This document shows positions 14,448 to 38,735 of a stretch of DNA of 64,000 nucleotides, one piece after another (the first letter of the stretch is position 1; each line of letters begins with the position of its first letter). A model generated the notes under the pieces. The model made no database searches. It saw only the letters and a list, made by a program, of their open reading frames with translations, and had not been told where the DNA came from. A program made the position numbers and the translations under genes. Location of the stretch: contig NZ_JABAGR010000007.1 in the NCBI RefSeq assembly GCF_012844235.1, positions 1 to 64,000 on the forward strand, in the 5' to 3' direction. This stretch comes from Parafannyhessea umbonata. GTDB taxonomy: Bacteria > Actinomycetota > Coriobacteriia > Coriobacteriales > Atopobiaceae.

Positions 14448-15734
14448 ATGGTCAAGCTGGGCAAGCAGGCACGCAGCGTCTCCATCGTCGGTGTGGGCTG
14501 CACACCGTTCAAGAACTTCGAGGACCATCCAGAGACGAAGGGCATGAGCGAGGGCGACGCCTTCGGCTACGCCGCGCTCGAGGCCATCAAGGACGCGGGC
14601 CTTCGGCCGCGCGACATCCAGTACTTCTACCATGGCGCGGCCAACCCGTTCATGATTGGCGACTCCCTCACGCCCAACATGCAGGTCGCAGATTGGTTCG
14701 GCGTCCGCGGCATCGGCTCCGTCCACCACTCCGAGGCGTGCTGCACCGGCTACGTCGCCCTGCAGGAGGCCGTCCAGGCCGTCGCATGCGGAACGTACGA
14801 CATCGTGCTCTCCGGTGCGGTCGACCTCGCGGCATCGCTTCCCGTCGTGGGCGCTCCCGGCTGCTACCGCCGCGACTTCCCGCTGGAGGAGATGCTTCCC
14901 TCCATCCCCATGGTGTACGACCGCGCCTACGGCCGTCCCCTGGATTCCGCCTTTGGCATCAGCTTCGACAACTGGATCAACAAGTACCGCTGGGAGTACG
15001 ACCTCACGGCCGAGCAGATCGACGCGGCGCTCAACGGCATGTCCAAGAGCCTTCGCAGGAACGCCGTGCTCAACCCGCTCGCGTTCTACGAGTCCGACTT
15101 CGACGACGCCGCGAAGGCGAACGGCATGAAGACCGCGGACGAGTTCCTCTCCTCCATGTTCAACCCCAAGGTCACCCAGTACCTGCGCGTGACCGGCTTC
15201 GAGACCAAGTGCGACGGTGCCGCCGCGCTCGTCGTCATGCCCACCGACATGGCCGTCGCCCGCGGGCTTGACCACAAGATCATCGACGTCCTTGGCACCG
15301 GTGCCGCCGCGTACGAGGGCGCGACCCCAGACAACGAGTACAACGGCACGAAGGACGGCGCCAAGCAGGTGTACGAGTGCACCGGCGTGAAGCCCGACGA
15401 GCTCGACCTGCTGTTCGTGAACGACTTCTTCCTGGCCGGCGACATCGTCAGCGCCGAGGAGGTCGGCTACATCCCGCGCGGCGAGGCTTGGCAGTACGCA
15501 ATCGACGGCCGCTGCGGCTTCGACGGCGACAAGCCCATCAACACCCACGGCGGACGCTGCAACTTTGGCCACGCCCACGGCGCGTCGGGCGTCGCGGACA
15601 TCTACGAGGCCGTCAAGCAGATGCGCGGCGAGGCGGGCGCGACGCAGATGCCCAAGGTCCCGAGGACCACGTTCCTCCGCGGCTTCGGCGGTGGCCAGAA
15701 CATCCGCTGCCAGATTCTGCGCACGCACGAGTAA
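14448..15734 (+). CDS. Thiolase-family enzyme (DUF35-partnered, SCP-x/Ltp-like)
   Basis: A 428-residue member of the thiolase superfamily of the non-biosynthetic branch that works with a DUF35 partner. Known relatives perform Claisen-type condensation or retro-aldol/retro-Claisen cleavage of acyl thioesters. The nucleophile region is HHSEACCTGYVAL (Cys 98 or 99), and NFGHAHGASG supplies the active-site His near residue 374. The usual C-terminal catalytic CxG loop is not evident, and GFGGGQNIR ends the protein, which favours a lyase/aldolase-like or carrier-dependent activity over a classical thiolase. The start is ATG 14448 after AAAGGA; an in-frame GTG at 14415 has no ribosome site. It is the first gene of a co-directional run with DUF35, acyl carrier protein, phosphotransacylase and kinase genes. 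Confidence 0.8.
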   Translation: MVKLGKQARSVSIVGVGCTPFKNFEDHPETKGMSEGDAFGYAALEAIKDAGLRPRDIQYFYHGAANPFMIGDSLTPNMQVADWFGVRGIGSVHHSEACCTGYVALQEAVQAVACGTYDIVLSGAVDLAASLPVVGAPGCYRRDFPLEEMLPSIPMVYDRAYGRPLDSAFGISFDNWINKYRWEYDLTAEQIDAALNGMSKSLRRNAVLNPLAFYESDFDDAAKANGMKTADEFLSSMFNPKVTQYLRVTGFETKCDGAAALVVMPTDMAVARGLDHKIIDVLGTGAAAYEGATPDNEYNGTKDGAKQVYECTGVKPDELDLLFVNDFFLAGDIVSAEEVGYIPRGEAWQYAIDGRCGFDGDKPINTHGGRCNFGHAHGASGVADIYEAVKQMRGEAGATQMPKVPRTTFLRGFGGGQNIRCQILRTHE

Positions 15735-15768
15735 CGTCACGAAGACTTCCACGAGGAGGAACCAGACA

Positions 15769-16236
15769 ATGCTTCTTGAAGACATGGAGCCGATCGTTAA
15801 GAAGTTCTACGACGGCGTCGCCCAGGGCAAGTACTACGGCCGCAAGTGCGTGGAGTGCGGCGCGATTGAGTTCCCGCCCCACCTGGGATGCAACACTTGC
15901 GGCTGCGCCGACACCGAGTGGGTCGAGCTCAGCGGCAAGGGCACCCTCGAGTCCTTTACCATTCCGGGCATCCAGAACGACAAGCCCTACCTCAAGGCCG
16001 TCGAGCCCTACGGCTACGGCAAGGTGAAGCTGGACGAGGGTCCGGAGTACACGTTCGTGATCTTCTGCGGCAAGAAGAAGGTCGTGAAGGGGCTGCAGGA
16101 GCGCCTGTACAAGAACCACGAGCAGATTCGCGTTCACGCCAAGCCCATCGAGCGCGTGACGCCGCTCAAGCCAGGCTCTGACAAGACCGTTACGTGGAGC
16201 GAGCTCTGCTTCGAGCTCGACGAGGTCGAGGCATAG
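15769..16236 (+). CDS. DUF35 Zn-ribbon/OB-fold thiolase partner
   Basis: A 155-residue protein. An N-terminal helix leads to a rubredoxin-like zinc ribbon (CVECG at 27-31 and CNTCG at 41-45), then an OB fold (GKGTLESFTIPG ... PYGYGKVKLDEGPEYTFVIF). In known complexes the OB domain guides the acyl-pantetheine arm into the thiolase active site. It starts 34 bases after the thiolase gene with GAGGAGGAA upstream, so the two surely form one complex. Residual C-terminal sequence is basic and could dock a carrier protein (inference). Confidence 0.88.
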   Translation: MLLEDMEPIVKKFYDGVAQGKYYGRKCVECGAIEFPPHLGCNTCGCADTEWVELSGKGTLESFTIPGIQNDKPYLKAVEPYGYGKVKLDEGPEYTFVIFCGKKKVVKGLQERLYKNHEQIRVHAKPIERVTPLKPGSDKTVTWSELCFELDEVEA

Positions 16237-16289
16237 CGCCCGGTCATAAAACAAGCAACTAGACAAGAGTTTGACGGAAAGGAACCACG

Positions 16290-16529
16290 ATGGATAACAA
16301 GGAGCTCTTCGACAAGCTTGCGGGGTTCGCAAAGACCGCCTACCAGTACAACGGCGACATCACCGCCGACACCACCTTCGACGAGCTGGGCAAGGAGTCC
16401 ATGAAGATGATCGCCCTCACCTCCCTCATCGAGGACGAGCTCGACGTCGAGGTCACGATCCACGAGGTCATGAAGATGAAGACCTTCGGCGAGCTCGTCG
16501 ACCGCGTCGCGGAGGAGTACGAGGAGTAG
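16290..16529 (+). CDS. Acyl carrier protein 1 of the island
   Basis: A 79-residue acidic helical protein with an acyl carrier fold. Ser37 in GKESMKM, followed by the helix II/III sequence IALTSLIEDELDVEV, is at the 4'-phosphopantetheine attachment site. The usual DSL triplet is ESM here, so it is a specialised carrier and not the housekeeping AcpP. AAGGAA lies upstream of the ATG. Its place between the thiolase/DUF35 genes and the phosphotransacylase gene suggests that the acyl group handled by the thiolase is held on this protein. Confidence 0.85.
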   Translation: MDNKELFDKLAGFAKTAYQYNGDITADTTFDELGKESMKMIALTSLIEDELDVEVTIHEVMKMKTFGELVDRVAEEYEE

Positions 16530-16645
16530 CCGGCCGAGAAGGACGGCCGTCCGCGGCCCATGCGCGTGCGGACGGCGGGTCCGCCTTGGCCCGTGCACGG
16601 GGAATGACCCCGCCCGCACGGACAGACAACGAGAGATCAGACCCA

Positions 16646-16678: not shown

Positions 16679-16703
16679 TTACCGAAGTGAGGGGAGAAAA
16701 GGC

Positions 16704-17711
16704 ATGGGCCTTATGGATGACGTGCGTCGCAAGGCGGCGCAGAACCCCCAGCGGGTTGCGTTCTACGAGGGCGAGAACCCAAAGATCCTGGAGGTGGCAG
16801 CAGAGCTCACGAAGGGTGGCCTCGCACGGTGCGCCATCGTCGGCGACGCGGAGGCCGTTCGCGCAAAGGCGAAGGAGGTGGGCGTCGACCTCGCCGGGGT
16901 CGAGCTCGTGGACATCACCGACGAGGAAGGCAACGAGTCCTTCTCGAAGCGCTTCGAGGTCATTCCCAACTGCCCGTACAAGTCCAAGGGGGTCCGCCGC
17001 CACGCGGCTCGTGCCATGGACCGCGCGTTCATGATGCAGCGCATCGGGGACGTGGACGTGAGCTTCGGCGGCATCGACTGCTCCACGGGCGACGTCATCC
17101 TCGCCGGTCAGAAGATCATCGGCCTGGCGGACGGCGTCACCACGGTGAGCTCCGCCGGCATCTTCGACATCCCCGGCTGGGAGGGGAGCGAGGGCAACCT
17201 GCTGGGGTTCGCGGACTCCGCCGTGTGCGTGAACCCGGACTCGCAGAAGCTCGCGCAGATCGCCGTCACCTCCGCGCGCACCGTTGCCGCGCTCACGGGC
17301 TGGGAGCCGCGCGTCGCGATGCTGAGCTACTCCACCGACGGCTCCGGCGAGGGCGAGATGGTCGATAAGGTGCGTGACGCCGTCAAGGCTGCCCACGAGC
17401 TCGCGCCCGAGCTCAAGATCGACGGCGAGTTCCAGCTCGACGCGGCCATCCGTCCGGACGTCGCCGCAAAGAAGGTGCACCGTCCCTCCGAGGTCGCGGG
17501 CCGCGCGAACGTTATCGTCTGGCCGGACATCAACGTGGGCAACATCGGCGTCAAGCTCGTGCAGAACTTCGGTCACGCGAACGCATATGGCCCGTTCCTC
17601 CAGGGCTTCAAGAAGATCGTGTGCGACTGCTCGCGCTCTTCTCCCGTTCCCGAGCTTGTCGGGAACGTCGTGATGAGCTGCGTCCGCGCGCAGGCGCTGA
17701 AGGAGGACTAG
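16704..17711 (+). CDS. Phosphate acyltransferase (Pta/Ptb family) 1
   Basis: A 335-residue enzyme of the phosphate acetyl/butyryltransferase family, which exchanges the thiol of an acyl thioester for phosphate to give an acyl phosphate. Family features are AFYEGENPKILEVAAEL at the N-terminus, the phosphate-binding SYSTDGSGEG near residue 212, and DGEFQLDAAI ... AGRANVIVWPDINVGNIGVK near the C-terminus. Substrate chain length cannot be read. GGGGAGAAAAGG precedes the ATG, and its stop is followed two bases later by the kinase ATG. Being in an operon with an acyl carrier protein raises the possibility of an ACP-bound substrate. Confidence 0.85.
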   Translation: MGLMDDVRRKAAQNPQRVAFYEGENPKILEVAAELTKGGLARCAIVGDAEAVRAKAKEVGVDLAGVELVDITDEEGNESFSKRFEVIPNCPYKSKGVRRHAARAMDRAFMMQRIGDVDVSFGGIDCSTGDVILAGQKIIGLADGVTTVSSAGIFDIPGWEGSEGNLLGFADSAVCVNPDSQKLAQIAVTSARTVAALTGWEPRVAMLSYSTDGSGEGEMVDKVRDAVKAAHELAPELKIDGEFQLDAAIRPDVAAKKVHRPSEVAGRANVIVWPDINVGNIGVKLVQNFGHANAYGPFLQGFKKIVCDCSRSSPVPELVGNVVMSCVRAQALKED

Positions 17712-17713: not shown

Positions 17714-18832
17714 ATGGCAGACAACGAGAAGAGGGACTACCGGATCCTCGTGATCAACCCCGGGTCCACTTCGACGAAGGTGGGCGTGTTCGAGGGCGAG
17801 CGCCCCCTCATGGAGAGGACCGTGGACCACGACGCCGCGACGCTCGCCGGCTTCGAGGGCGTGAGCGACCAGCTGCCGTACCGCCGCGAGACCATCATGG
17901 CGGCGCTCGGCGAGGCGGGCATAGACCCCGCGACGATGGACGCGTTCGTCGGCCGCGGCGGCGGGCTCATGCCCGTCGAGGGCGGCACGTACGAGGTGAA
18001 CGACGTCCTGCTGGACCACGCCCGCCGCGGCGCGAACGGCGTGCAGCATCCCGCGCAGCTCGGCCCGCAGCTCGCGGCGGCCCTGGCGCATGAGTGCGGA
18101 AGGCCCGCGTTCGTGGTGAACCCGCCCGACACCGACGAGCTCTGCGACCTCGCCCGCGTCACGGGCGTGAGGGGCGTCTACCGCCACGTGCACCTGCACG
18201 CGCTGAACCTGAAGGAGACGGCCATCCGCCACGCGGCGTCGATGGGGCGTCGCTACGAGGACCTCGACCTCGTGGTCTGCCACGTGGGCGGCGGCATCTC
18301 CGTGAGCGCGCACCACCTGGGCCGCATGGTCGACGGCTTCGACATCGTCGGCGGCGAGGGCATGATGGCCCCCACCCGCTGCGGGGCCCTTCCCGTGGCG
18401 GAGGTGCTCGACTACCTCGAGGCCGGCCACACCACGGCGGAGGTCCGCCGCCTGTGCATGAAGACGGGCGGCTTCGTGGACCTGCTGGGGACCTCCGACG
18501 CGCGCGAGGTCACGGCCCGCGCGAAGGCGGGGGACGCCGCGGCCGCGCGCGCGTGGGACGCGATGCTCTACCAGCTCACCAAGTGCGTCTGCGCCATGGC
18601 GGGCGTCCTCGGCGGCCACGTGGACGGTATCCTGCTCGGCGGCGGCATGGCCCACAGCGCCGAGCTCGTGGGCCACGTGAGGGAGACGTGCGGCTGGGTC
18701 GCGCCCGTCACGGCCTACCCCGGCGAGTTCGAGCTCGAGGCCATGGCCGCGGGCGCCCGCCGCGTGCTGTCCGGCCAGGAGCAGGCCAAGGTCTACACGG
18801 GCGTCCCCGTGTTCCAGGGCTTCGACGACTAG
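17714..18832 (+). CDS. Butyrate/branched-chain acyl kinase 1
   Basis: A 372-residue member of the acetate/butyrate kinase (ASKHA) family that makes ATP from an acyl phosphate. The N-terminal phosphate-1 motif is VINPGSTSTKVGVFEGE. The phosphate-2 region is VVCHVGGGISVSAHHLGRMVDG and the adenosine motif is DGILLGGGMAHS. It is about the usual butyrate kinase length and clearly closer to Buk than to AckA. The ATG lies two bases after the phosphotransacylase stop with AAGGAGG inside that gene's end. Together the pair would conserve energy by substrate-level phosphorylation. Confidence 0.88.
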   Translation: MADNEKRDYRILVINPGSTSTKVGVFEGERPLMERTVDHDAATLAGFEGVSDQLPYRRETIMAALGEAGIDPATMDAFVGRGGGLMPVEGGTYEVNDVLLDHARRGANGVQHPAQLGPQLAAALAHECGRPAFVVNPPDTDELCDLARVTGVRGVYRHVHLHALNLKETAIRHAASMGRRYEDLDLVVCHVGGGISVSAHHLGRMVDGFDIVGGEGMMAPTRCGALPVAEVLDYLEAGHTTAEVRRLCMKTGGFVDLLGTSDAREVTARAKAGDAAAARAWDAMLYQLTKCVCAMAGVLGGHVDGILLGGGMAHSAELVGHVRETCGWVAPVTAYPGEFELEAMAAGARRVLSGQEQAKVYTGVPVFQGFDD

Positions 18833-18910: not shown

Positions 18911-20116
18911 ATGAACAAGACTCAGGTCAAGTACATCGTAGGCATATACTCCGCCGCGATGTGCATCATGGGGATGCTCGTTCCCGTGCCCATCCTGTCC
19001 TCTATCGCGAGGAGCTTTCCAGATGCCAACATCGCGGCGGTCCAGATGTGTATCGGCATCATTCCGCTGTGCATGGCGCTCTCGGCCATGTTCGTGTCGT
19101 CCGTGCTCGCGACGCGCGTGCAGAAGCGCTATACCGTGCTTGCGTGCCACGTGCTGATTATGGTCGCGGGTCTCTCCGTCGTGGCGTTCCATGCGGAGCT
19201 GTGGCAGGTGCTTGTGGCCTCCGTGTTCATCGGAATCGGCATCGGCGGCATCCAGAACGGGACGGATGCCCTGATTGCCGACTACTTCGAGGGCCAGCAG
19301 CGCGGCAGCATCATGGGCGTGTACTCCACGTTCGTCGCGCTGGGCGGCATCCTCTGGACCACGCTCTCTGGCATCCTTGGCGCGCACGAGTGGTACATGG
19401 CCTATGCCGCCTATGCCGCTGAGCTGCCGTTCATCATCATCGAGGCGATTTGCCTCCCCATGGGTCACCTTGAGCCAAAGCGCAAGAGCAACGTCTTCAA
19501 GAACATGCCCAAGGAGGTCGCGCTCATCACGCTGATCAGCTTCGTCTTCGTGCTGTGCTTCCAGCTCTTCTCGACCAACGTGTCACTGATCGTGTCCGAG
19601 CGCGGCTTTGGCGGAACGGGCGAGAGCGCCATGGCGTCCACCATCATGACCGTGGCGGGCATCTTCGCGGGGCTTCTGGTGGGGCCGCTGTTCAAGCGCT
19701 TCAAGAACCGCGCGATGCCGCTTGCCTGGTGCGTGACGATCGTCGGTCTCGCGCTCACGCTCGTGGCTCCGTCGCTTGGCGTACTGTGCGCCGCAGGCTT
19801 CGTCACCTCGCTCGGCAAGGAGACGTACGTGCCGCTGCAGGGCAACTTCGCGGCTGGCAACAGCGCGAACGAGGGACGTGCGTTCAACCTCGCCATCGGC
19901 ATGGCCGGGACCAACTTCGGCATGGCGTTGTCACCCTTGTTCTTCGAGGCGGCCACGGCACCGTTCGGTGCGCAGATAGGCCAGAAGTTCGTCCTGGGCA
20001 TCGTAATCATCGTGGCGCTGGTGGTGTTCGGCATGATTCACTACGCCAAGCTGACGCCCGCCCAGGAGGCGGAGGAGGCCGCTCGGGCTGTCGCACGCGA
20101 AGACGCCACAAGGTAG
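18911..20116 (+). CDS. MFS transporter 1
   Basis: A 401-residue major facilitator with twelve predicted membrane segments. The loop 2-3 region is degenerate (SSVLATRVQKRYT instead of the usual GxLaDrxGrr), while the central loop holds EPKRKSNVFKNMPKEVA. GAAAGGTG precedes the ATG. It is the downstream member of the thiolase-to-kinase gene run and likely imports the pathway substrate or exports its acid product. The substrate is unknown. Confidence 0.82.
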   Translation: MNKTQVKYIVGIYSAAMCIMGMLVPVPILSSIARSFPDANIAAVQMCIGIIPLCMALSAMFVSSVLATRVQKRYTVLACHVLIMVAGLSVVAFHAELWQVLVASVFIGIGIGGIQNGTDALIADYFEGQQRGSIMGVYSTFVALGGILWTTLSGILGAHEWYMAYAAYAAELPFIIIEAICLPMGHLEPKRKSNVFKNMPKEVALITLISFVFVLCFQLFSTNVSLIVSERGFGGTGESAMASTIMTVAGIFAGLLVGPLFKRFKNRAMPLAWCVTIVGLALTLVAPSLGVLCAAGFVTSLGKETYVPLQGNFAAGNSANEGRAFNLAIGMAGTNFGMALSPLFFEAATAPFGAQIGQKFVLGIVIIVALVVFGMIHYAKLTPAQEAEEAARAVAREDATR

Positions 20117-20241: not shown

Positions 20242-21606
20242 ATGAACGAGCGCATGCCGGCGCACGAGGACGCGGGCGAGAAGAGCGAGGCCCTTCGGCT
20301 GGAGGATGAGTGGTGGCAGGAGGATGCCGGCAAGCTCATAGTCAGGGCGCTCTTCTCGGACATGGGGCTCCAGCACATCGTGGACGTGGCCGCGCGGGTG
20401 CTGGGAAACCCCGTCGCCGTGATCGACGCGAACTATCGCTACGTGGCGCGCAAGATGGACGTGGCGCCGGACGACGACTCGGAGTTCGCCCGCGTGATGC
20501 GGGACGAGCTGCGCAGCGGCTTCGTGAGCGAGGAGGGCATCGCCTACATCCACGAGCGCGGGCTGGACGAGCGCCTTGCGCAGCGCGTGTGCCCGTGCGT
20601 GCACTTCAACGACCGGCTTCAGGCGAACACCCTGGTGGGCGCGGCCATGGTGCACGGCATCTGCATAGCCCACGTGATGCTGGTGGAGCGCGGCCGCGCC
20701 ATCACGCCCGAGGACGAGGGGTGCTTCGACCTGCTGGTGGGGATCGTGGCGCAGGAGCTGCAGAAGAACCCCGTGTACCTGAGCACGCGCGGGCAGATGG
20801 GGTCGTACTTCCTGGCGTCGCTCCTGGAGAACGACCATCCGGACGCCACCTCGCTGGAGCGTCGCGCCGCCGCCATCAACTTCAGGCCGTCCGCGCGCAT
20901 GCGCGTGGTGGTCGCCGTGCCCAGGAACCCCTTCGCGCAGGTGGGGAACATGCAGAACGTCGCGGGCCAGCTGCAGCCGCTCCTGGCGCACGGCCTGTAC
21001 ACCCTGCACAAGAACCAGCTTGTGATGCTGGTCTGCAAGGGCGAGGGGAAGGACGTGACGGACTTCGAGCTTGGGCGCATGCGCGACGTGGCCGAGCTGA
21101 ACGACCTCCTGCTTGGCATCTCGAACCGGTTCGACTCGCTTACGGGCGTGCACAGCAGCTACGAGCAGGCGCACGACGCCATACGCTACGGGCAGACGGT
21201 GTCGAACGCGCTTGAGGTGGGGCGCATCATGCGCTACGACTACCTGAGCTACGTGAAGCTGCTGGAGCGCACGAACCAGACGGACGACCTGCTGGACATC
21301 TGCCCGCCCACGCTGGTGGCGCTCATGGAGCACGACCGCACCCACGACTCGGACCTCATGAACACGCTGTTTGGCTACCTGCAGAACGGCCAGTCCACCG
21401 CGCGGGCCTCCGCGCAGCTGAGCCTGCACAAGAACACGCTGCTGTACCGCCTGGGCACCATCCGCAAGATCCTGGGCTGCGACCTGTCCAGCGGGGAGGA
21501 CGTGTTCCAGCTGCAGGTGGGGTTTCGCGTCCTGATGTACCTGGGGCTGTTCTGCCCGCGCTTTCGCCACACCCGCGAGCAGCTGCGCGAGCACCCGCGC
21601 GCGTAG
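20242..21606 (+). CDS. PucR/CdaR-type transcriptional regulator 1
   Basis: A 454-residue regulator. Residues about 40-170 form a GAF-like sensor region (DMGLQHIVDVAARVLGNPVAVIDANYRYVARK). A central domain follows, and at the C-terminus is the PucR-type helix-turn-helix (ARASAQLSLHKNTLLYRLGTIRKILG, about 397-422). Members of this family usually activate catabolic operons in response to pathway intermediates. GGAGG precedes ATG 20242. The gene lies between the thiolase-kinase operon and the flavodoxin-like gene and is one of two PucR-type regulators in the island. Confidence 0.85.
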   Translation: MNERMPAHEDAGEKSEALRLEDEWWQEDAGKLIVRALFSDMGLQHIVDVAARVLGNPVAVIDANYRYVARKMDVAPDDDSEFARVMRDELRSGFVSEEGIAYIHERGLDERLAQRVCPCVHFNDRLQANTLVGAAMVHGICIAHVMLVERGRAITPEDEGCFDLLVGIVAQELQKNPVYLSTRGQMGSYFLASLLENDHPDATSLERRAAAINFRPSARMRVVVAVPRNPFAQVGNMQNVAGQLQPLLAHGLYTLHKNQLVMLVCKGEGKDVTDFELGRMRDVAELNDLLLGISNRFDSLTGVHSSYEQAHDAIRYGQTVSNALEVGRIMRYDYLSYVKLLERTNQTDDLLDICPPTLVALMEHDRTHDSDLMNTLFGYLQNGQSTARASAQLSLHKNTLLYRLGTIRKILGCDLSSGEDVFQLQVGFRVLMYLGLFCPRFRHTREQLREHPRA

Positions 21607-21793: not shown

Positions 21794-22768
21794 ATGGCAG
21801 AAGAGACCGCACGCAAGCACAAGGTCATGGGCATCTGCGCGGGCATGCACAACGGCAACGGCGAGATAGCGCTGAAGGCGGCGCTCGCCCGCCTGCAGGA
21901 GAAGGGCGCGGACGTCGAGCTGGTGAACCTCTTCGACTACAACATCCTGCCGTGCACGGGCTGCGAGGGCTGCACCATGCAGATGGGCGCCATCGCGCAG
22001 GACCCCACGAAGGAGTACAAGGGCTGCGTCCTGAAGGACAAGGACGACGTGGACAGGCTCGTGGCCGAGATGCACACCTGCAACGGCGTAATCATCGCGG
22101 TGCCGAGCTACGACCTGCAGCCCAGCTCGCTGTACACCCGCTTTGCGCAGCGCTTCCTGGCGTACGAGCTCAGCTTCCTGCTGTCCATCGGCGTGGTGAA
22201 GGAGAACCCGCACACGGTGGCGGGCCTCATCGCGGTGGGCGGCTCGAAGCACGACTGGCAGACCCTCACGCTCGAGAGCCTGCAGGCCACGATGTTCACC
22301 ATGTCGCTCACGGTCGTGGACCGCTACATGATAACGCGCTCCGCGCGCCCCGGCTCCGTCCTCACGTTCCCGGATCAGATGGAGCGCGTGGTCAAGATGG
22401 CCGACAACGTGTGGCAGGCCATGGAGACGCCGGTGGAGGAGCGCACGTGGCTGGGCGACCCGGACGACGGCGTGTGCCCGAACTGCCACTCCAGCCTGGT
22501 GTACCCCGGCGACCCGCACTGGGACGGCGTCGAGTTCCCGTGGGAGTGCGCGGTGTGCGGCGCCGGCGGCGACCTGGTAACCGACGAGAACGGCAAGCCC
22601 CGCCTGAAGATCGCCGAGAACGGCCTCATCCGCGACCGCAACGACGACAAGGCGCGCGCCGAGCACCTGAACGAGATCATCAAGACCCGCATCGAGTTCA
22701 TGCAGAAGCGCGACTCCATCCAGGACGAGTACAAGCGCTACTGCAAGATGGAGTTCCCCACGGTGTAG
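21794..22768 (+). CDS. Flavodoxin-like FMN reductase with C-terminal zinc ribbon 1
   Basis: A 324-residue protein. Residues 1-190 match the NADPH-dependent FMN reductase/flavodoxin fold (VMGICAGMHNGNGEIALKAA, then CTGCEGCTMQMG, then a PSYDLQPSSLYTRFAQRF loop). The C-terminal part holds two CxxC pairs (CPNCHSSL and CAVCGAGG) spaced as in a zinc ribbon. The flavodoxin core with CxxCxxC is typical of iron-sulfur flavoproteins and quinone or azo reductases. A same-length relative with the same architecture lies at 32704, so the pair are paralogues within this system. GAGAGGAG precedes the ATG. Likely role: two-electron reduction of a pathway substrate. Confidence 0.75.
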   Translation: MAEETARKHKVMGICAGMHNGNGEIALKAALARLQEKGADVELVNLFDYNILPCTGCEGCTMQMGAIAQDPTKEYKGCVLKDKDDVDRLVAEMHTCNGVIIAVPSYDLQPSSLYTRFAQRFLAYELSFLLSIGVVKENPHTVAGLIAVGGSKHDWQTLTLESLQATMFTMSLTVVDRYMITRSARPGSVLTFPDQMERVVKMADNVWQAMETPVEERTWLGDPDDGVCPNCHSSLVYPGDPHWDGVEFPWECAVCGAGGDLVTDENGKPRLKIAENGLIRDRNDDKARAEHLNEIIKTRIEFMQKRDSIQDEYKRYCKMEFPTV

Positions 22769-22949: not shown

Positions 22950-23198
22950 ATGGACGAGGATCGTCAGGAAGTGTGGGACGCGCTCACCACGCGCGCAAGC
23001 CAGCTGTTTGGCAAGGACGCCTCCGAGTTTACGGAGGACACGAAGTTCGTGGACCTGGGAATCAAGAGCGTCCAGGTGTCTCAGCTGACCACCTACCTCG
23101 AGGACGAGCTTGACATCGAGGTGCCGTTTATGAAGTTCCGCCGTTGCGAGACGTTTGGCGCCGCGACGGACTTCGTGTGCGAGCTGCTGGACGAGTAG
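22950..23198 (+). CDS. Acyl carrier protein 2 of the island
   Basis: An 82-residue acyl carrier fold. Ser40 in LGIKSVQVSQL is the predicted phosphopantetheine site, followed by TTYLEDELDIEVPFMKF. As in the first carrier of the island the DSL triplet is altered (KSV). GAAAGGGG precedes the ATG. The stop is 11 bases before the CocE-type hydrolase ATG, so the carrier and hydrolase are translated from one message. A second dedicated carrier protein in a catabolic cluster is unusual. Confidence 0.85.
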   Translation: MDEDRQEVWDALTTRASQLFGKDASEFTEDTKFVDLGIKSVQVSQLTTYLEDELDIEVPFMKFRRCETFGAATDFVCELLDE

Positions 23199-26914: not shown

Positions 26915-27262
26915 CAGATCGCACGATTTCGAAAGGTCGCGGCGGGTGTGTACCCGCCGCCGTACGCACCAGGGGTGAGTTTGCAGGACTTGGCAAACTC
27001 GCCCCTGGTGTGTTGCGATAGGTGGAACCCGCTGCCACGAAGCCGCGGGTGTGTTGCGCGATTTGCAAGAAACCCCCGGGTGTGTGACGTCTCCTTTTGG
27101 TTTCATTCCAAATGACCGCAGGTAGATGGGTTGTGGCATAAATCTGAAAACCAAATACGCGGTACGCACCTGGCGGTTCCTGACACGCGGCCCCTCCTGG
27201 CGCAACACACCCGACCCGACCTTGCGCGACTTCGCAACCTCGCCTTGGGTGTGTGACCCAAC
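26915..27262. repeat. Palindromic repeat cluster R2 between convergent genes
   Basis: The gap 26833-27389 between two convergent genes has no credible gene. It contains a palindromic unit at about 26938-27013, the conserved element whose minus strand is CACACCCGGGGGTTTCTT (27069-27086), then a core of about 75 bases in which TTTTGGTTTCA and TGAAAACCAAA form a long-range dyad around CGCAGGTAGATGGG. On the far side are TACGCACCTGGCGGTTCCTG and another palindrome ending GTGTGTGACC near 27255. The same modules, in the same order or reversed, appear in clusters R1, R3 and R4. Confidence 0.75.
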
Positions 27263-30983: not shown

Positions 30984-32555
30984 ATGAAGCTGAGAACGGT
31001 GCTGAGCGAGTTGCCCATACGGGGCTTTGACGTTGCCGATGACGTCCAGCTGGGATGGGACATGGTCGTGTCTCCCGAGTGGGGCGTCGGAGAGCGCGCG
31101 GAGGGCGTCATCCGCCTGGGGTCCCGCGCCGACCTGGCCCAGGAGGGCGCCCCGGGCCAGGGCGAGGGCCTTCTCCTTGTGTACGCCCAGGGCGCCGAGG
31201 AAGACGCCATGGGCGCGGACGCGCGGGCGCCGCGGGAGCCCGGCGTCGTGTACTGCTGGGGCGACCTCGCGCCCAGCGAGTTCCAGGACGCGTTCCTGGG
31301 CCTCGTGCGCCGCAGCGGCGAGCTGGGCGCGCGGCGGAACCAGCTGTTCGACTGCTTCCTGGAGTCCTACGACATGCGGCAGTTTGCCCAGCGGGCGGCC
31401 GCGGTGCTCGAGAACCCGGTCATCATCTCGAACACGGAGCACAAGATCCTGGCGACGGCCGGCGCGCTGCCCACCTCGGACGACGTGCGTTCCTCTCTGG
31501 AGGCTGGCTACATCACGCCCGAGGTGGAGCGCCGCATGCGCGAGGACGGCGTCATCAGCTCGGTGCGCAACGCGCGCCACTCCGTCCTGTCGGAGCGCGC
31601 GGGCGAGAAGAACCGCGCCGTGACCTCGATAATCTACCATCACCGGCTCGAGATGGGCCGCTTCGACGTGTTCGAGGTCACGCACGCCATGACGGGCCTC
31701 GACCTGGAGCTCGTCGACTTCGCGAGCGACCTGGCGGGCATCATGATCGACAGGCTCGGCGCGGCGGGCGGGCGCCTTGGCAAGGGCTCGTCCATCCTGA
31801 AGGACGTGCTCGAGGGCACGTTCGTGAGCGAGGACGCGCTGCGCGCGCACCTGGACCTCCTGGGCCTTGCCGCGGACGACACCTACGTGCTGCTGTGCGT
31901 GCGCGGCCCCGCGGACGCGAACGAGGAGTACTACGCCCGCGCAGGCGCCATCGTTCAGAGGGGCATGCCGGGCGTCGTGTGGTGCGTCTCCGGCGATGCC
32001 CTCGTGCTGCTGGTGGCGGTGGGCTCCGCCGGCGAGGTGGGCTTCGATGCGTACGAGCGCTGCGAGCGGCGGCTCTCGCGCGACCGCGGCCTCACGCAGA
32101 TGCTTGCCAACAACGACATGCGCGCGTTCACGAGCGAGCCGTTTGACGACCTGCTGGACATGAGGCGCGCGCTGCGCGAGTGCCGCGAGCTGTCCGCGGC
32201 CGTGCATGCGCGCGGCAGCGCCAGGATCGTGTACCTGTGGCGGCACCGCTTCGAGGTCATCGCGCACAACGCGGAGCTAGCGGGCGTCCACGACATGCTG
32301 CTTGACAAGCGCGTCGTGGCGATGGAAGCCTACGACCGCGCCCACGGCACCTCGTACCTGCAGACGGCCGTGGCGTCCGTCCGCTTCCCGGGAAGCCCCG
32401 CAGACGCCGCGGAGGCCCTGTCGGTTCATCGCAACACGTACTTCTACCGCGTGAACAAGATCGACGAGCTGTTCCACCTCGACCTGAAGGACGGGGACGA
32501 CCGCCTTGCCGTGAGCTTCGCCTCCGCCGTCATGGAGGGGCTCTCCGGCATGTAG
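30984..32555 (+). CDS. PucR/CdaR-type transcriptional regulator 2
   Basis: A 523-residue regulator. The N-terminal 120 residues follow the purine-catabolism PucR_1-like pattern (VLSELPIRGFDVADDVQLGWDM). A central sensor region follows (QRAAAVLENPVIISNTEHKILATAG), then a GGDEF-like middle domain, and the C-terminal helix-turn-helix is DAAEALSVHRNTYFYRVNKI (about 478-497). It differs from the first PucR of the island in having the longer N-terminal domain. GGGA precedes the ATG. It probably senses an intermediate of the pathway and controls both divergent directions. Confidence 0.85.
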   Translation: MKLRTVLSELPIRGFDVADDVQLGWDMVVSPEWGVGERAEGVIRLGSRADLAQEGAPGQGEGLLLVYAQGAEEDAMGADARAPREPGVVYCWGDLAPSEFQDAFLGLVRRSGELGARRNQLFDCFLESYDMRQFAQRAAAVLENPVIISNTEHKILATAGALPTSDDVRSSLEAGYITPEVERRMREDGVISSVRNARHSVLSERAGEKNRAVTSIIYHHRLEMGRFDVFEVTHAMTGLDLELVDFASDLAGIMIDRLGAAGGRLGKGSSILKDVLEGTFVSEDALRAHLDLLGLAADDTYVLLCVRGPADANEEYYARAGAIVQRGMPGVVWCVSGDALVLLVAVGSAGEVGFDAYERCERRLSRDRGLTQMLANNDMRAFTSEPFDDLLDMRRALRECRELSAAVHARGSARIVYLWRHRFEVIAHNAELAGVHDMLLDKRVVAMEAYDRAHGTSYLQTAVASVRFPGSPADAAEALSVHRNTYFYRVNKIDELFHLDLKDGDDRLAVSFASAVMEGLSGM

Positions 32556-32703: not shown

Positions 32704-33678
32704 ATGGCTAAGGTACTTGGAATCTCGTTTGGCACCAAGAACGGCAACAACGACTCCATCTGCAAGGAGGCGCTCATGGGCGCGGTGGAGGAGGGCTGCG
32801 AGGTGGAGTTCATCCGCGCGCAGGACCTCGACATCCGCCACTGCACCGGCTGCATCGCGTGCGTGAAGTCGCTCATGGGCGGCCGCGGCAACCGCTGCAT
32901 ACACAAGGACGACTTCGACTGGCTGTTCTTCAAGATGGCCGAGGCCGACGCCATCGTCATGTGCGACCCCATCTTCGAGACGGGCGCGTCCGGCCTGTTC
33001 CACACGATCATGGACCGCTTCGGGCCGCGCATGGACACGGGCAACAACGTGCTCTCCACCAGGATCGCCAAGGGCCTTGCCGCCGAGGGCAAGCCGTCCA
33101 AGGAGCCGGACCCGCGCGTGATCTGCCCGGGCAAGCCCGTGAGCTACATCGCGATCTGCGGCTCCGACTGGGGCACGCACGCCCAGTCCGACCACGCGAT
33201 CCAGTCCATGACGCCCACGTGGAAGGTCATCGACAACGAGTGGGTGCCCTGGAGCAAGCGCGCCCTGATGGACGACGCCGTTGTGTCCCGCGCCCACCAG
33301 ATCGGCGTTAACCTCGCCCGCGCCGCGAAGGACCCCGAGCACGCCGAGTACCAGGGCGAGAAGGGCGTGTGCCCCCACTGCAACGCCAACGACTTCTATC
33401 TGGTTCCCGGCACCGACAAGGCCATCTGCTCCGTGTGCGGCCTCGAGGGTCATGTGCACGTGAACGAAGGCAAGGTCGAGGTGGAGTACCGCGACGAGGA
33501 GTGCTACGACGAGCGCGGCCTGTTCCGCGCGCACGACACCGCCGAGGGCAAGCAGATCCACGGCGAGGACATCGCGCGCATGGAGGGCGAGCTCGCAAAG
33601 CTGCAGCGTGGCGACGAGTACAAGCAGCGCGTCGCGCGCTACAAGGAGTTCATCCAGCCGACGATGCCCGAGCGCTAG
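32704..33678 (+). CDS. Flavodoxin-like FMN reductase with C-terminal zinc ribbon 2
   Basis: A 324-residue paralogue of the protein at 21794. The flavodoxin-like core (VLGISFGTKNGNNDSICKEAL) leads to CTGCIACVKSLMGG and a DPIFETGASGLFHTIMDRF loop. Near residue 225 is the zinc-ribbon pair CPHCNAND ... CSVCGLEG. The C-terminus is helical and charged. GGAAGGA precedes the ATG. It lies between pucR2 and the three-gene redox operon, so it is a likely target of pucR2. Probable role: reduction of an organic substrate using FMN and possibly an iron-sulfur or zinc site. Confidence 0.75.
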   Translation: MAKVLGISFGTKNGNNDSICKEALMGAVEEGCEVEFIRAQDLDIRHCTGCIACVKSLMGGRGNRCIHKDDFDWLFFKMAEADAIVMCDPIFETGASGLFHTIMDRFGPRMDTGNNVLSTRIAKGLAAEGKPSKEPDPRVICPGKPVSYIAICGSDWGTHAQSDHAIQSMTPTWKVIDNEWVPWSKRALMDDAVVSRAHQIGVNLARAAKDPEHAEYQGEKGVCPHCNANDFYLVPGTDKAICSVCGLEGHVHVNEGKVEVEYRDEECYDERGLFRAHDTAEGKQIHGEDIARMEGELAKLQRGDEYKQRVARYKEFIQPTMPER

Positions 33679-33903: not shown

Positions 33904-35427
33904 ATGGCACAAGAGCTCGAGACAGACGTCGTCGTAGTGGCCGCAGGCCTTTCCGGTCTGGCGGCATCCATCGCCGCAGCGGAGGGAGGCGCGCGCGTCA
34001 TCACGCTCGAGAAGGCGTCCAACACCGGCGGCGCGGCCAACATGGGCATGGGTCCCTGCGCGGCGGGCTCGCCCGTCCAGCGCGCCTCGATGATCGAGGT
34101 CACGCCCGGCGAGCTGTTCCGCCGCCACATGTTCTACACCCACTACCAGGTCGACCCGCGCCTCGTCCGCGCGTACTACTTCAAGAGCGGCGACACCATC
34201 AAGTGGCTGCAGGACATGGGCGTCGTGTTCAACTCCGTGCGCCCGGCGTTCCGCGCCCGCGAGCGCACCCGCGCCTACGCCGACGGCGAGTACACCTGGC
34301 ACGTGGTGCAGCCGGAGGACGGCTCCGAGCCGGGCCCGCGCGCCGCGACCACGATGATCAAGCGCATGACCGAGCGCGCGAACGACCTGGGCGTCGAGTT
34401 CATGTTCGAGTGCCCCGGCAAGAAGCTCCTGGTGAACGACGAGGGCGCCGTGTGCGGCGTCGTCGCCACGAACAAGGACGGCGAGGAGGTCACCATCTCG
34501 TGCCAGGAGGTCATTGTGGCCACCGGCGGCTTCGGCAACAACGCGAAGATGATCCACGACAAGATCGGCCTGGACTGGGGCAAGAACCTGTACTCCTTCG
34601 CGGTGCCCGGCATGGACGGCGACGGCTACAACATGTGCCACGAGGTTGGCGCCGGCCACACGCCCGTCACCATGGAGATGATGTACCAGCTGCCGGACAA
34701 CATGAACCACTTCTACGTGGAGGGCGCGTTCCGCCAGCCGTGCTACTGGTGCGACAAGACCGGCGAGCGCTTCATGCCCGAGGACGACATCTTCAACACC
34801 ACCTTCGTCGGCAACGCCATCAACCACCTGCCCGGCAAGGTCGCGTTCTCGATCTTCGACTCCAAGATGCTGCGCCACTGGAAGAAGGACGGACCCGACA
34901 TCGTGAGCCACGTCCACCCGCACGACCTGTACCAGGGCTTCGACGAGCAGTGGCAGCGCGATCTCGACACGTACATGGACGGCGCCGGCAACCACGTCAT
35001 CGCTCAGGCCGACACCCTGGAGGAGCTGGCCGAGAAGATCGGCATCGACCCCGAGGGCCTCGTCCAGAACGTCGAGCAGTACAACGAGATGTGCGCCGAG
35101 GGCTACGACGAGCTCTTCGAGAAGGAGCGCGAGTTCATGATGCCGCTCGAGGAGGGGCCGTTCTACGTGTGCCGCCAGTACGTGGGCGCCTACGGAACCC
35201 TGGGCGGAGTGCTCATCAACCACAACATGGAGGTCATGACCGACGACTACAAGGTCATCGACGGCCTGTACTGCGTGGGCACGGACGCCTGCACCATCTA
35301 CGGCGACTCCTACAACTACTCCATCCCCGGCAACACCATGGGCTTCTGCCTGAACTCCGGCCGCATCGCCGGCGAGAACGCCGCCGAGCGCGTTGCGGAG
35401 TCCGCGGGTGACGAGGACTGGGACTAG
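33904..35427 (+). CDS. FAD-dependent reductase (fumarate reductase flavoprotein-like)
   Basis: A 507-residue FAD_binding_2-family flavoprotein. The dinucleotide-binding site is VVVAAGLSGLAASIAAAEGG with LEKASNTGG after it; the first Gly of GxGxxG is Ala here. EVIVATGGFGNN and the C-terminal FAD loop (YNYSIPGNTMGFCLNSGRIAGENAA) complete the fold. There is no signal peptide, no covalent-flavin domain and no haem sites, so it is a soluble cytoplasmic enzyme, unlike most exported Coriobacteriia reductases of this family. Likely reaction: reduction of a C=C or C=O bond next to an electron-withdrawing group. It leads an operon with two electron-transfer proteins. GAGGAG precedes the ATG. Confidence 0.82.
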   Translation: MAQELETDVVVVAAGLSGLAASIAAAEGGARVITLEKASNTGGAANMGMGPCAAGSPVQRASMIEVTPGELFRRHMFYTHYQVDPRLVRAYYFKSGDTIKWLQDMGVVFNSVRPAFRARERTRAYADGEYTWHVVQPEDGSEPGPRAATTMIKRMTERANDLGVEFMFECPGKKLLVNDEGAVCGVVATNKDGEEVTISCQEVIVATGGFGNNAKMIHDKIGLDWGKNLYSFAVPGMDGDGYNMCHEVGAGHTPVTMEMMYQLPDNMNHFYVEGAFRQPCYWCDKTGERFMPEDDIFNTTFVGNAINHLPGKVAFSIFDSKMLRHWKKDGPDIVSHVHPHDLYQGFDEQWQRDLDTYMDGAGNHVIAQADTLEELAEKIGIDPEGLVQNVEQYNEMCAEGYDELFEKEREFMMPLEEGPFYVCRQYVGAYGTLGGVLINHNMEVMTDDYKVIDGLYCVGTDACTIYGDSYNYSIPGNTMGFCLNSGRIAGENAAERVAESAGDEDWD

Positions 35428-35529
35428 TGCCTAAGCGCTAGAACACTGACTGCCGCGGGGCCCTTCATGCGAGGGTCCCGCGGTCGTATGGATGATGGGC
35501 GCGCGTGCGCCCAGGCGAGAGGAACACAC

Positions 35530-37653
35530 GTGAAGCTAACGATTGACGGTACGGAGGTCGAGGCCCGCGAGGGGACGTCGGTGCTTGATGCCGCGCTCGA
35601 CGCGGGCGTCTTCATCCCGCACATCTGCAAGCACCCCGACCTCGAGGCCGTGGGCGGCTGCAGGCTCTGCTCCATCGTGGTCGACGGCGAGGGCCCCGCG
35701 GTCCCCGCGTGCAAGACCCCGGTGCGCGAGGGCATGGTGGTCGACTCCCACGCGAAGGCGGCGGAGGACGTGCGCCGCACGGCCATGGAGCTCATCCTGG
35801 CGACGCACCCGTCCGACTGCACGGGCTGCCCGAAGTACGGCGTGTGCGAGCTGCAGAGTATGTACCAGTACCTGGGCGTGTCCCCGGCGCGCTGGCGCTG
35901 CCGCGCCCGCACCGTCGCGACGGACGACTCCAACCCGCTCATCACGCACATGTTCACGCGCTGCATCCGCTGCGGCCGCTGCGTGCGCGCGTGCCGCGAG
36001 CTCCGCGGCGTGGGCGTACTGGACTACCAGCGCACGCCGGAGGGCATTCGCATCGGCATCGATGGCGGCGTCTCGCTCGAGGAGGCCGGCTGCCGCTTCT
36101 GCGGCGCGTGCGTCGAGGTGTGCCCCACGGGCTCGATCGTCGACACGCTGGGACTGGCGAAGGAGGGCCGCTCGCGCGAGGACAACGTGGTGCCCTGCAG
36201 GTCCGGCTGCCCGGCGCACATCGACATCCCGCGCTACCTGCGCCACGTCAAGAACGGAGAGTGGGAGAAGGCCACGGCCGTCGTCCGCGAGCGCGTGCCG
36301 TTCCCAGAGACGCTCGGCTCCATCTGCACCCATAACTGCCAGGGCGAGTGCAAGCGCAACCACCTGGAGGGGCCGCTGTCCATCTGCCGCCTGAAGCGCG
36401 CGGCAGCCGTGCGCGACACCGGCGAGTGGCGCCGGCGCACGCGCCACGACGCCCCGACCGGCAAGAGGGTGGCCATCCTGGGCGCCGGTCCCGCGGGCCT
36501 CACCGCTGCCTACTACCTGGCCGAGAAGGGCCACCACGTCGTCGTGTTCGAGGCGGAGCAGAAGGCCGGCGGCCAGCTGCGCTACGGCATCCCCGCGTAC
36601 CGACTTCCCGACGAGGTGCTCGACCGCGAGATCCAGGCGATCCTGGACGTGACGCAGGGCGACGACGCGGAGCCTCGCGTCGAGATCCGCTGCGGCGAGC
36701 GCGTGCGCGACCCGAAGGCACTCAAGTCCGAGTTCGACGCTGTCCTGGTGTCCGTGGGCACGTTCGACGGCACCGTCCTTCCCACCCCGGGCCACGAGCT
36801 CGAGGGCGTCATCCGCAACACTGACTTCCTGAAGGCGGCCCGCAAGGGCGAGCCGATGGACGTGCGCGGCCGCGTCGTCGTGCTTGGCGGCGGCAACGTC
36901 GCCTACGACTGCGCCCGCACGGCCGTCCGCCTGGGCGCCACGAGCGTCGACGTGTGCTGCCTCGAGGCCGAGGCGGTCATGACCTCAACGCCGGAGGAGC
37001 GCGAGGAGGCCGCTGAGGAGGGCGTCACGCTGCACGACGCCTACGCGTTCACCTCCATCGACGAGAGCGCGGACAGACCCGGCCACGTGGGTGCCATGAC
37101 CGTGCACAAGATCGCGAAGTTCTACTTCGACGAGCAGCACCGCCCGGTGACGGAGCTCGTCGAGGGCGGCGAGCTCACGATTCCGGCGGACTACGTGATC
37201 TTCGCCGTGGGCCAGAAGCCCGAGGACACGCGCGACATGGGCCTGGAGCTCACGCACGGCCCGTACGTGGTGGCCGACGCAGAGCACCGCACGAGCGAGG
37301 ACGGCGTGTTCGCGGCCGGCGACGCCGTGACGGGCACGAAGTCCGTCATCGGCGCGATCGAGGGCGGACGCGAGTCTGCGCAGGCGATTGACCGCTTCCT
37401 GGGCGGCGACGGCGACATCTCTGAGGTTCTTCTCGACGCGGACGCGCCGGTCCAGCGCATCGGCAAGGTGCCCGCGGGCTTCTACGACGGGCCGACGGAG
37501 CCCAAGATGGAGCCCGCGCAGGAGCGCAAGGCGGACTTCCGCCCGTACGAGTGCCCGTTCTCGGAGTCCGAGGCCGAGCACGAGGCGTCGCGCTGCCTGC
37601 AGTGCGACCTCAGGCTGACCCTGACGCGCCCGCGCCTGTGGAACGAGTACTAG
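35530..37653 (+). CDS. Multi-domain Fe-S/FAD/NAD(P) oxidoreductase (GltD/NfnB-like)
   Basis: A 707-residue electron-transfer protein starting at GTG 35530 with AGAGGA upstream. In order: a [2Fe-2S] domain (Cys 33, 44, 47, 61); a His-Cys [4Fe-4S] site (H93, C97, C100, C106); two [4Fe-4S] ferredoxin motifs (C145/148/151/155 and C188/191/194/198); a GltD-type Cys region (C223, C227, then CTHNCQGECKRN); an FAD site (GAGPAGLTAAYYLAEKG); an NAD(P) site (GGGNVAYDCARTAVRLG); and a terminal FAD motif. The front half resembles NuoG/HydA N-termini, the back half the small subunit of glutamate synthase. It would pass electrons between NAD(P)H and the neighbouring proteins. Confidence 0.85.
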   Translation: MKLTIDGTEVEAREGTSVLDAALDAGVFIPHICKHPDLEAVGGCRLCSIVVDGEGPAVPACKTPVREGMVVDSHAKAAEDVRRTAMELILATHPSDCTGCPKYGVCELQSMYQYLGVSPARWRCRARTVATDDSNPLITHMFTRCIRCGRCVRACRELRGVGVLDYQRTPEGIRIGIDGGVSLEEAGCRFCGACVEVCPTGSIVDTLGLAKEGRSREDNVVPCRSGCPAHIDIPRYLRHVKNGEWEKATAVVRERVPFPETLGSICTHNCQGECKRNHLEGPLSICRLKRAAAVRDTGEWRRRTRHDAPTGKRVAILGAGPAGLTAAYYLAEKGHHVVVFEAEQKAGGQLRYGIPAYRLPDEVLDREIQAILDVTQGDDAEPRVEIRCGERVRDPKALKSEFDAVLVSVGTFDGTVLPTPGHELEGVIRNTDFLKAARKGEPMDVRGRVVVLGGGNVAYDCARTAVRLGATSVDVCCLEAEAVMTSTPEEREEAAEEGVTLHDAYAFTSIDESADRPGHVGAMTVHKIAKFYFDEQHRPVTELVEGGELTIPADYVIFAVGQKPEDTRDMGLELTHGPYVVADAEHRTSEDGVFAAGDAVTGTKSVIGAIEGGRESAQAIDRFLGGDGDISEVLLDADAPVQRIGKVPAGFYDGPTEPKMEPAQERKADFRPYECPFSESEAEHEASRCLQCDLRLTLTRPRLWNEY

Positions 37654-37664
37654 GAGGGACCCCC

Positions 37665-38735
37665 ATGGCATTGACTATCAACTTCATGCCCGCGTACGCG
37701 CAGGCACCCGCGGCGCTCGCGGCCCTGAGGGCCGACGTGGACGCGGCCGTCGCGAAGGCGGCGGCCGAGGGGGCCCGCGTGGTCCTTCCGGCGGGCGAGC
37801 CCGAGCTCTGTGACGCGTTCGAGGCGGCGGGCGTCGCCGTTGCGCGCGCCGACGCGTCGTTTGGCTACGTGTACGGCAACGACACCGCCGCCGCCCGCCT
37901 GTTTGCGGGCGAGAAGCCCATCCCCTCGGCCGTGACCGGCTCGGCCGCGGACGCGCTGGTGGGCGGCGAGGCGTGGCTTCGCGGCAAGGACGCGCCGAAG
38001 CTCGTGTACGTGAACGGCGCGACCGAGCCGGTGGAGCTGCCGGCGAAGGTGAGCGTGGCCGAGCTGGCCAAGGCAGCCGGCATCGAGGACGCCAAGGCCG
38101 TGCACCTGGGATTTCCGCAGGGTGACATGGTCGCGGCCTCTAGCGAGGGGGACGTTCTTCTCGCCAGCGACGTGGTGCGCGTGTTTGGCGCGGACTGCTG
38201 CATGGCCGACGAGCTGCTGAGGATCTGCCGCGAGTACCGCCACGAGACGTGCGGGCGCTGCGTGTTTGGCCACGAGGGCTCGTACCAGATGGCCACGATC
38301 CTGGAGGACGTCTGCCACAAGCGCGGCAAGTCCGGCGACCTGGAGCTTCTGCAGGACCTTGCCCCGATGATGGAGGAGCAGTCGCTGTGCGAGGTTGGTC
38401 GCGTGCTGGCGAAGACGGTGCGCGAGACCTGCGCGCTGTTTGGCGACGAGATCTCTGCCCACTATGCGCGCAAGGTGTGCCCGGCCGGCGCGTGCGACGC
38501 GTACAAGACGTTCCACATCCTGGTGTCCAAGTGCACCGGCTGCGGCGACTGCCTGGACGCGTGCGAGGACGGCGCCATCATGGGCAAGGCGAACTTTGTG
38601 CACGTGATCGACCAGCGCAAGTGCACGCAGTGCGGCCGCTGCCTGGACGCGTGCGGCGAGGGCGCCGTCGTGAAGGCCGGCGCGAAGAAGCCGAAGACGC
38701 CGCCGCGGCCCATTCCCGTGCGCAGGAAGAAGTAG
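37665..38735 (+). CDS. NuoF-like protein with two ferredoxin [4Fe-4S] sites
   Basis: A 356-residue protein eleven bases after the previous stop, with AGGAGGG in front. Residues 190-260 match the iron-sulfur region of NuoF (ETCGRCVFGHEGSYQMATIL; C196, C199, C242), but one Cys of the usual SCGxCxPCRxG motif is replaced. The C-terminus has two [4Fe-4S] motifs (C290/293/296/300 and C320/323/326/330) and a basic tail. The N-terminal 180 residues lack the FMN- and NADH-binding glycine loops of true NuoF. It is thus probably an electron relay and not an NADH dehydrogenase by itself. With the two upstream genes it could form a ferredoxin/NAD(P)-linked reductase. Confidence 0.8.
   Translation: MALTINFMPAYAQAPAALAALRADVDAAVAKAAAEGARVVLPAGEPELCDAFEAAGVAVARADASFGYVYGNDTAAARLFAGEKPIPSAVTGSAADALVGGEAWLRGKDAPKLVYVNGATEPVELPAKVSVAELAKAAGIEDAKAVHLGFPQGDMVAASSEGDVLLASDVVRVFGADCCMADELLRICREYRHETCGRCVFGHEGSYQMATILEDVCHKRGKSGDLELLQDLAPMMEEQSLCEVGRVLAKTVRETCALFGDEISAHYARKVCPAGACDAYKTFHILVSKCTGCGDCLDACEDGAIMGKANFVHVIDQRKCTQCGRCLDACGEGAVVKAGAKKPKTPPRPIPVRRKK

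Follow-up and report, generated by a model that had tools for sequence, protein, structure and literature searches.

Complexes that pair a thiolase-fold subunit with a DUF35 partner are part of several described systems, and the genes for one such pair form a cassette, together with those for an acyl carrier protein (ACP), a phosphotransacylase (Pta) and a butyrate-kinase-family acyl kinase (Buk), in the 2.3-Mb genome of Parafannyhessea umbonata (assembly GCF_012844235.1; estimated completeness 99.9%). The cassette was analysed within a stretch of 64,000 nucleotides, called here the window (contig NZ_JABAGR010000007.1, positions 1 to 64,000). The best explanation of the locus, to which we give a probability of about 0.5, is that it would carry out an ATP-conserving C–C cleavage of a reduced flavonoid, or a similar ketone, onto ACP.

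Related Systems

PhlABC (or PpATase), the 2,4-diacetylphloroglucinol Friedel-Crafts acyltransferase, resembles the cassette in its thiolase-fold Cys subunit and its DUF35 partner, and transfers acyl groups to and from acylphloroglucinols without coenzyme A (CoA); its PhlC subunit, which belongs to the same superfamily as the window thiolase, moves acyl groups between phloroglucinols by Cys-based chemistry (PMC6392133). Unlike the cassette, however, PhlABC is biosynthetic and includes a third, KAS III-like subunit, PhlA; no such PhlA/HMGCS-type subunit was found among the island genes or in the conserved block. To our knowledge, PhlABC has no link to ACP, Pta or a kinase. The benzoylsuccinyl-CoA thiolase BbsAB and the archaeal acetoacetyl-CoA thiolase/HMGCS also contain a thiolase–DUF35 pair of the same fold, but they use CoA thioesters and have no known link to a dedicated ACP.

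The Pta-AckA and Ptb-Buk pairs convert an acyl thioester to an acyl phosphate and then to ATP, and the cassette kinase is a member of the butyrate-kinase family. These known pairs use CoA, whereas the cassette Ptas have lost CoA-contact residues and an ACP gene lies in the block. PlsX makes acyl phosphate from acyl-ACP, as proposed for the cassette Pta, but it serves lipid synthesis and not ATP formation. Finally, the flavonoid pathway of Flavonifractor and Eubacterium (flavone reductase or FLR, CHI, Fcr/EnoR, and phloretin hydrolase) has a counterpart in the island in the form of an FLR homolog with conserved pocket residues. That pathway includes phloretin hydrolase; none is detectable in the host, where the proposal is a thiolytic C–C cleavage that transfers the acyl group to ACP and yields ATP. 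The open-access literature, supplements aside, yielded no relevant account of a thiolase–DUF35–ACP–kinase cassette or of ACP-linked substrate-level phosphorylation.

Conservation of the Five-Gene Block

The conserved unit is thiolase–DUF35–ACP–Pta–Buk, with all five genes on the forward strand in the window (Table 1). The thiolase was found in 38 of 298 Coriobacteriia genomes (E 1e-20), 31 of these being close orthologs, and the closest named relatives of the host in this search were Olsenella and Tractidigestivibacter. A scan of a wider collection also retrieved it from Streptococcus ovis, S. moroccensis, Erysipelotrichaceae, Lachnospiraceae, Anaerolineales, an actinobacterial metagenome-assembled genome (MAG), and archaea. 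Synteny was counted at 52 homologous loci with more than 4.5 kb of downstream sequence; within 9 kb, DUF35 was present in 51 loci, ACP in 50, and both Pta and Buk in 45. In some rumen Atopobiaceae MAGs, Pta and Buk are out of reach of the thiolase locus. In the GC-rich flanks of relatives, gene prediction is rough and includes some antisense open reading frames (ORFs); the conclusions rest on homology searches. The core block as a whole occurs in Coriobacteriia, Anaerolineales, Streptococcus, Erysipelotrichaceae, and Micrarchaeota.

Across the five core proteins, pairwise distances correlate (Spearman 0.73–0.87), as simple joint descent would also predict. This correlation and the retention of the block across phyla indicate that the grouping is more than chance. 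A first-pass annotation of this DNA had proposed a 24-kb catabolic island running on carrier proteins, to be checked by co-conservation of the five genes and contradicted if they were unlinked elsewhere; the genes recur together across phyla and are linked in relatives. What is conserved is the cassette and not the full island, since FLR, the FAD reductase, CocE, the MBL-fold hydrolase and the second Pta/Buk pair vary around it. At one Lachnospiraceae locus (L083, 2653-11984), two thiolases, two DUF35 proteins, an ACP-like protein, two Ptas and one Buk are encoded beside a putative anion carrier.

Thiolase and DUF35 Subunits

In the thiolase, Cys98 and His375 are invariant among 26 homologs. 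All 26 lack the canonical C-terminal CxGGG motif with its second catalytic Cys, the mark of canonical CoA thiolases, and have a GFGG/NHGYG-type sequence instead. The predicted structure (pLDDT 85) has the superfamily fold, with Z scores of 46 to 7yvy and 43.5 to PhlC. The DUF35 partner scores above the cutoff for OB_ChsH2_C, and its ribbon cysteines C27, C30, C41, and C44 are invariant in 17 sequences. An Ltp2-type aldolase was rejected because the nucleophilic Cys, which Ltp2 reportedly lacks, is invariant in the window thiolase family. The Cys chemistry of PhlC, together with the conserved Cys and His and the superfamily fold of the window thiolase, leads us to propose that a ketone would be cleaved onto ACP1, with acyl phosphate and ATP as the products of the following steps.

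Carrier Proteins and Phosphopantetheinyl Transferases

Both carriers of the island match PF00550 (39.7 bits for ACP1 and 37.3 for ACP2), and the phosphopantetheine Ser is invariant in 19 ACP sequences; ACP1 is predicted to be a 4'-phosphopantetheine/acyl carrier. The other ACP genes of the host belong to a Fab/Acc operon, to a plsX-acp-rnc cluster, and to a dlt-like context with ligase and MBOAT-like genes as neighbours (named by eye from translations). Since the fatty-acid ACPs are thus separately encoded, the objection raised in advance by the first-pass annotation, that the carriers might stand among fatty-acid genes, does not apply. A phosphopantetheinyl transferase (PPTase) gene lies near the block in 25 of the 52 loci, and was confirmed with Pfam in six lineages.

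The Micrarchaeota offer the most compact version of the cassette. A Pta of any kind was found in 11 of 245 sampled genomes (about 4%), nine of which have a contiguous thiolase–DUF35–ACP–AcpS–Buk–Pta block. In the three genomes checked, the cassette ACP and Pta are the sole members of their families, and therefore the only carrier protein there belongs to the block. Similarly, the cassette AcpS is the sole PPTase in the five genomes checked, and two sampled Micrarchaeota without Pta have no PPTase either. The remaining two Pta-bearing genomes (L136, L143) have Pta-Buk only, without thiolase or ACP in the stretch seen.

Collinsella phocaeensis has an ACP-Pta-Buk-MFS operon without thiolase (L062, 17888-20503, reverse strand), in which an ortholog of window Pta 2 follows the ACP gene. 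The position of this ACP gene ahead of the second Pta-Buk pair suggests a second carrier-linked module.

Phosphotransacylases and Kinases

The two window Ptas score 237.9 and 241.4 bits against TIGR00651 (Pta; equivalog cutoff 311.2) and 65.8 and 86.8 bits against TIGR02706 (phosphate butyryltransferase; cutoff 410.5); by score they resemble Pta more than Ptb, while falling below both curated cutoffs. The kinases exceed the cutoff of TIGR02707 (butyrate kinase; 368.7 and 359.7 bits, cutoff 289.1).

The Pta of P. gingivalis binds acetyl-CoA through Arg89 and Lys92 at the 3'-phosphate and through Arg135 at the beta-phosphate; the two arginines correspond to R87 and R133 of M. thermophila Pta (PMC6461089), whose sequence, like that of reference FLR, was taken from search alignments. 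Arg occupies the R133 position in all five solved Ptas aligned; each of the cassette Ptas in the alignment has another residue there. R87 is also absent from the bacterial cassette Ptas, with one exception, an HGW actinobacterium. At R87/R133 the window Ptas have P/L and G/M and the host housekeeping Pta has R/R; both arginines are likewise kept in the housekeeping Ptas of T. scatoligenes, two Collinsella, and S. ovis. The catalytic Ser309-Arg310 is kept in the aligned members. In the tree, canonical Ptas form a branch apart from the cassette Ptas (support 100/99), and no ACP gene was found in their 1.5-kb flanks. The first-pass interpretation is supported in part, and the arginine loss and the dedicated PPTases, read from sequence, strengthen its carrier idea. 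That ACP is the true acyl partner is, in our judgement, probable.

Flavone Reductase Homolog and Candidate Substrate

The product of 32704-33678 is an FLR homolog by sequence, predicted to reduce flavones: it is 56% identical over 308 residues to F. plautii FLR (7D38, E 1e-108), and keeps most residues that contact FMN or substrate, namely W72, I89, E91, D103, G106, S147, W149, H271, I275, T305, and P307. It thereby exceeds the thresholds set for FLR membership (identity of 30% or more, coverage of 80% or more of FLR) and has the pocket residues. The first-pass annotation had listed two flavodoxin-like reductases, both of which are present, and had overlooked this homology and its pointer to flavonoids. 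In the FLR study, apigenin was converted by each of the 11 additional homologs assayed (PMC7862272). A survey that lists FLR homologs from Olsenella MAGs reports another F. plautii paralog to be inactive on apigenin (PMC8398226).

Of the 298 Coriobacteriia genomes, 24 have both FLR and the cassette, seven the cassette only, two FLR only, and 265 neither (Fisher p 5e-27, relatedness uncorrected), so that 24 of 26 FLR-bearing genomes have the cassette. The corresponding counts by genus are 11, 2, 0, and 112 (p 4e-14, relatedness uncorrected). Linkage alone does not account for this co-occurrence, since FLR and the cassette lie at distant sites in some genomes.

Phloretin hydrolase (PF18089) had no match in the host genome. 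Long OYE-type genes outside the island may include a counterpart of the chalcone isomerase (CHI) or flavanone-cleaving reductase (Fcr) of the known pathway. Olsenella scatoligenes belongs to the five gut species, out of 94, in which quercetin degradation is reported (PMC8269047), and the genome of its strain SK9K4 (L036) has the cassette and FLR, with phloretin hydrolase undetected. A Lachnospiraceae relative with thiolase–DUF35–ACP and reductases has seven phloretin-hydrolase-family genes. In two Tractidigestivibacter-group genomes (L039, 15990-18122; similar in L038), a BaiCD-like OYE reductase lies within the island and may provide a flavanone-reducing step. The DPGC/TAL phloroglucinol route was set aside for the host genome, in which no DPGC-family cyclase or BKACE was detectable.

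Proposed Pathway and Points against It

In the proposed pathway, FLR would reduce a flavone or flavonol, the ketone most likely coming from a plant flavonoid or similar enone, and the FAD/Fe-S reductase system, possibly with OYE-type enzymes encoded elsewhere, would reduce the product further and open the ring. The thiolase–DUF35 complex would then attack the ketone via Cys98, break the C–C bond, and load the acyl group onto the ACP1 phosphopantetheine. From acyl-ACP and phosphate, the Pta-like enzyme would form acyl phosphate, which the Buk-like kinase would convert to ATP and free acid. The thiolase complex would thus stand in place of phloretin hydrolase, removing an arylpropionyl-type side chain and saving the bond energy as ATP. 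Cleavage with ATP gain is the direction that we hold somewhat the more probable, while a flavonoid-type substrate in the host falls a little short of even odds. Only tentatively can the same function, ketone C–C cleavage onto a dedicated carrier with ATP from acyl-ACP, be extended to flavonoid-degrading gut bacteria and Micrarchaeota alike, the latter with a self-contained six-gene unit.

Several observations weigh against this pathway. The arginines are missing, too, from the sole distant Ptb-like sequence aligned, and enzymes of the Ptb type work on CoA esters though they differ at these sites; arginine loss is therefore not decisive. Furthermore, archaeal and HGW-Actinobacteria members still have an Arg near position 87, and in P. 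gingivalis Pta mutating the two arginines lowered activity by only 58% and 21% (PMC6461089). In fold, PhlC is not a closer match to the thiolase than the relatives that use CoA are (Z 43.5 vs 46), and the host has two PPTases, neither of them in the window and the second on another contig. As for the substrate, the FLR–cassette counts ignore relatedness, and several carriers, namely Collinsella aerofaciens, Streptococcus, and Micrarchaeota, lack a neighbouring FLR; the cassette is thus not specific for flavonoids and must act on other substrates there. Quercetin loss was seen in a relative, without products or genes (PMC8269047), and acylphloroglucinol deacylation may not release enough energy for ATP.

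Alternative Readings

The alternative that survives best, itself unlikely, keeps ACP-linked catabolism and changes the substrate from an acylphloroglucinol to a linear 3,5-diketo acid (e.g., triacetate, replacing TAL) or a cyclic 1,3-dione. A Pta-like phosphotransacylase suits an acetyl group, and the Anaerolineales locus has, besides the block and FMN reductase and FAD/Fe-S reductase genes, a cyclase-family gene and an SDR, families of phloroglucinol degradation; however, the DPGC-type cyclase and BKACE are undetected in the host genome.

Next in order, and rather doubtful, is the biosynthetic direction, in which Buk and Pta would charge ACP with a free acid at the cost of ATP, and thiolase–DUF35 would join the acyl group to a second molecule, by Claisen or Friedel-Crafts acylation, to give a ketone. 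All steps are reversible, PhlABC and MucABC of the same superfamily are acyltransferases, and the Micrarchaeota cassette has no obvious catabolic neighbours. However, the window neighbours are carriers, reductases, and hydrolases, with no polyketide synthase, nonribosomal peptide synthetase, or tailoring genes; FLR co-occurs with the cassette; and the block has no PhlA/HMGCS-type third subunit.

Slightly lower still we place an ordinary CoA-dependent thiolase and Pta-Buk pathway in which ACP has a separate purpose. It would agree with the nearness of the thiolase fold to CoA-using archaeal thiolases and with the use of CoA by Ptb-type enzymes that differ at the arginine sites. Against it stand the ACP gene in 50 of 52 loci, the sole ACP of three Micrarchaeota, the dedicated PPTases, the separate Pta branch, and the second ACP-Pta-Buk set without thiolase in C. 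phocaeensis (L104).

A supply of acetoacetyl-ACP to isoprenoid (mevalonate) synthesis in Micrarchaeota, modelled on archaeal thiolase–DUF35 complexes that serve that route (6esq), is very improbable and was set aside, because 14 of the 15 archaeal genomes tested have an HMG-CoA reductase whether or not they carry the cassette, whereas a Pta was found in only ~4% of sampled Micrarchaeota.

Gene Content of the Island

All genes named by the first-pass annotation were found intact in high-GC coding frames (ORF calls with Pfam and NCBIfam); the gene set stood, and the boundaries of the thiolase, DUF35, Buk 1, and CocE genes were revised to those of Table 1. The TetR-family gene, just outside the range first drawn, is 5' of the thiolase in many relatives, and the CocE gene adjoins ACP2 in relatives too.

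Table 1. Genes of the island and its upstream regulator (window coordinates).
Product	Position	Strand	Basis or remark
TetR-family regulator	12717..13319	+	Pfam TetR_N/TetR_C_8
Thiolase-fold subunit	14448..15734	+	Pfam/NCBIfam; predicted structure
DUF35/OB_ChsH2 (Zn-ribbon/OB) partner	15769..16236	+	Pfam
ACP1, putative dedicated acyl carrier protein, phosphopantetheine Ser37	16290..16529	+	PF00550 above cutoff
Pta-like phosphotransacylase 1	16704..17711	+	PTA_PTB
Butyrate-kinase-family acyl kinase 1	17714..18832	+	TIGR02707 above cutoff
MFS carrier 1	18911..20116	+	PF07690
PucR-type regulator 1	20242..21606	+	HTH_30 and GGDEF_2
Distant FLR-family flavoprotein	21794..22768	+	FMN_red; 7D38 match E 4e-15, 27% to FLR
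ACP2, second carrier protein	22950..23198	+	PF00550
CocE/S15, CocE/NonD-type hydrolase	23210..25129	+	TIGR00976 above cutoff
Small membrane protein	25296..25805	+	No family match in Pfam/NCBIfam search
MBL-fold hydrolase	25960..26832	+	PF00753
MFS carrier 2	27390..28658	-	PF07690
Butyrate-kinase-family acyl kinase 2	28659..29783	-	TIGR02707 above cutoff
Pta-like phosphotransacylase 2	29804..30817	-	PTA_PTB; without CoA arginines
PucR-type regulator 2	30984..32555	+	Pfam; start codon chosen among alternatives
FLR homolog	32704..33678	+	7D38 match E 1e-108
FAD ene-reductase (FAD_binding_2), fumarate/urocanate/vinylphenol-reductase superfamily	33904..35427	+	Family search
2Fe-2S/4Fe-4S plus GltD-like (GltD/NuoG-like) NAD(P)H oxidoreductase subunit	35467..37653	+	Family search
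NuoF-like/ferredoxin Fe-S subunit	37551..38735	+	Family search

An integrase-core (rve) transposase gene, probably of an insertion element, adjoins the island (39789-41421, reverse strand). An intergenic repeat of ~63 nt, often spaced at 73 nt, occurs in the window at 13450-14034, 26980-27014, and 61579-61613; its core matches 23 sites in the genome, and the reversed control pattern none. Rfam and tRNA scans of the window gave no matches, and a promoter/terminator scan remained at chance level.

Significance

If the proposed pathway is true, ACPs, which are known mainly from biosynthesis, would also serve ATP-making fermentation, in a mode of energy conservation for which no description was found in the open-access literature. 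Quercetin degradation without phloretin hydrolase would be explained, with a gain of energy, for a gut species reported to degrade this flavonol, and in some archaea of very small size the single ACP would acquire a testable metabolic role.

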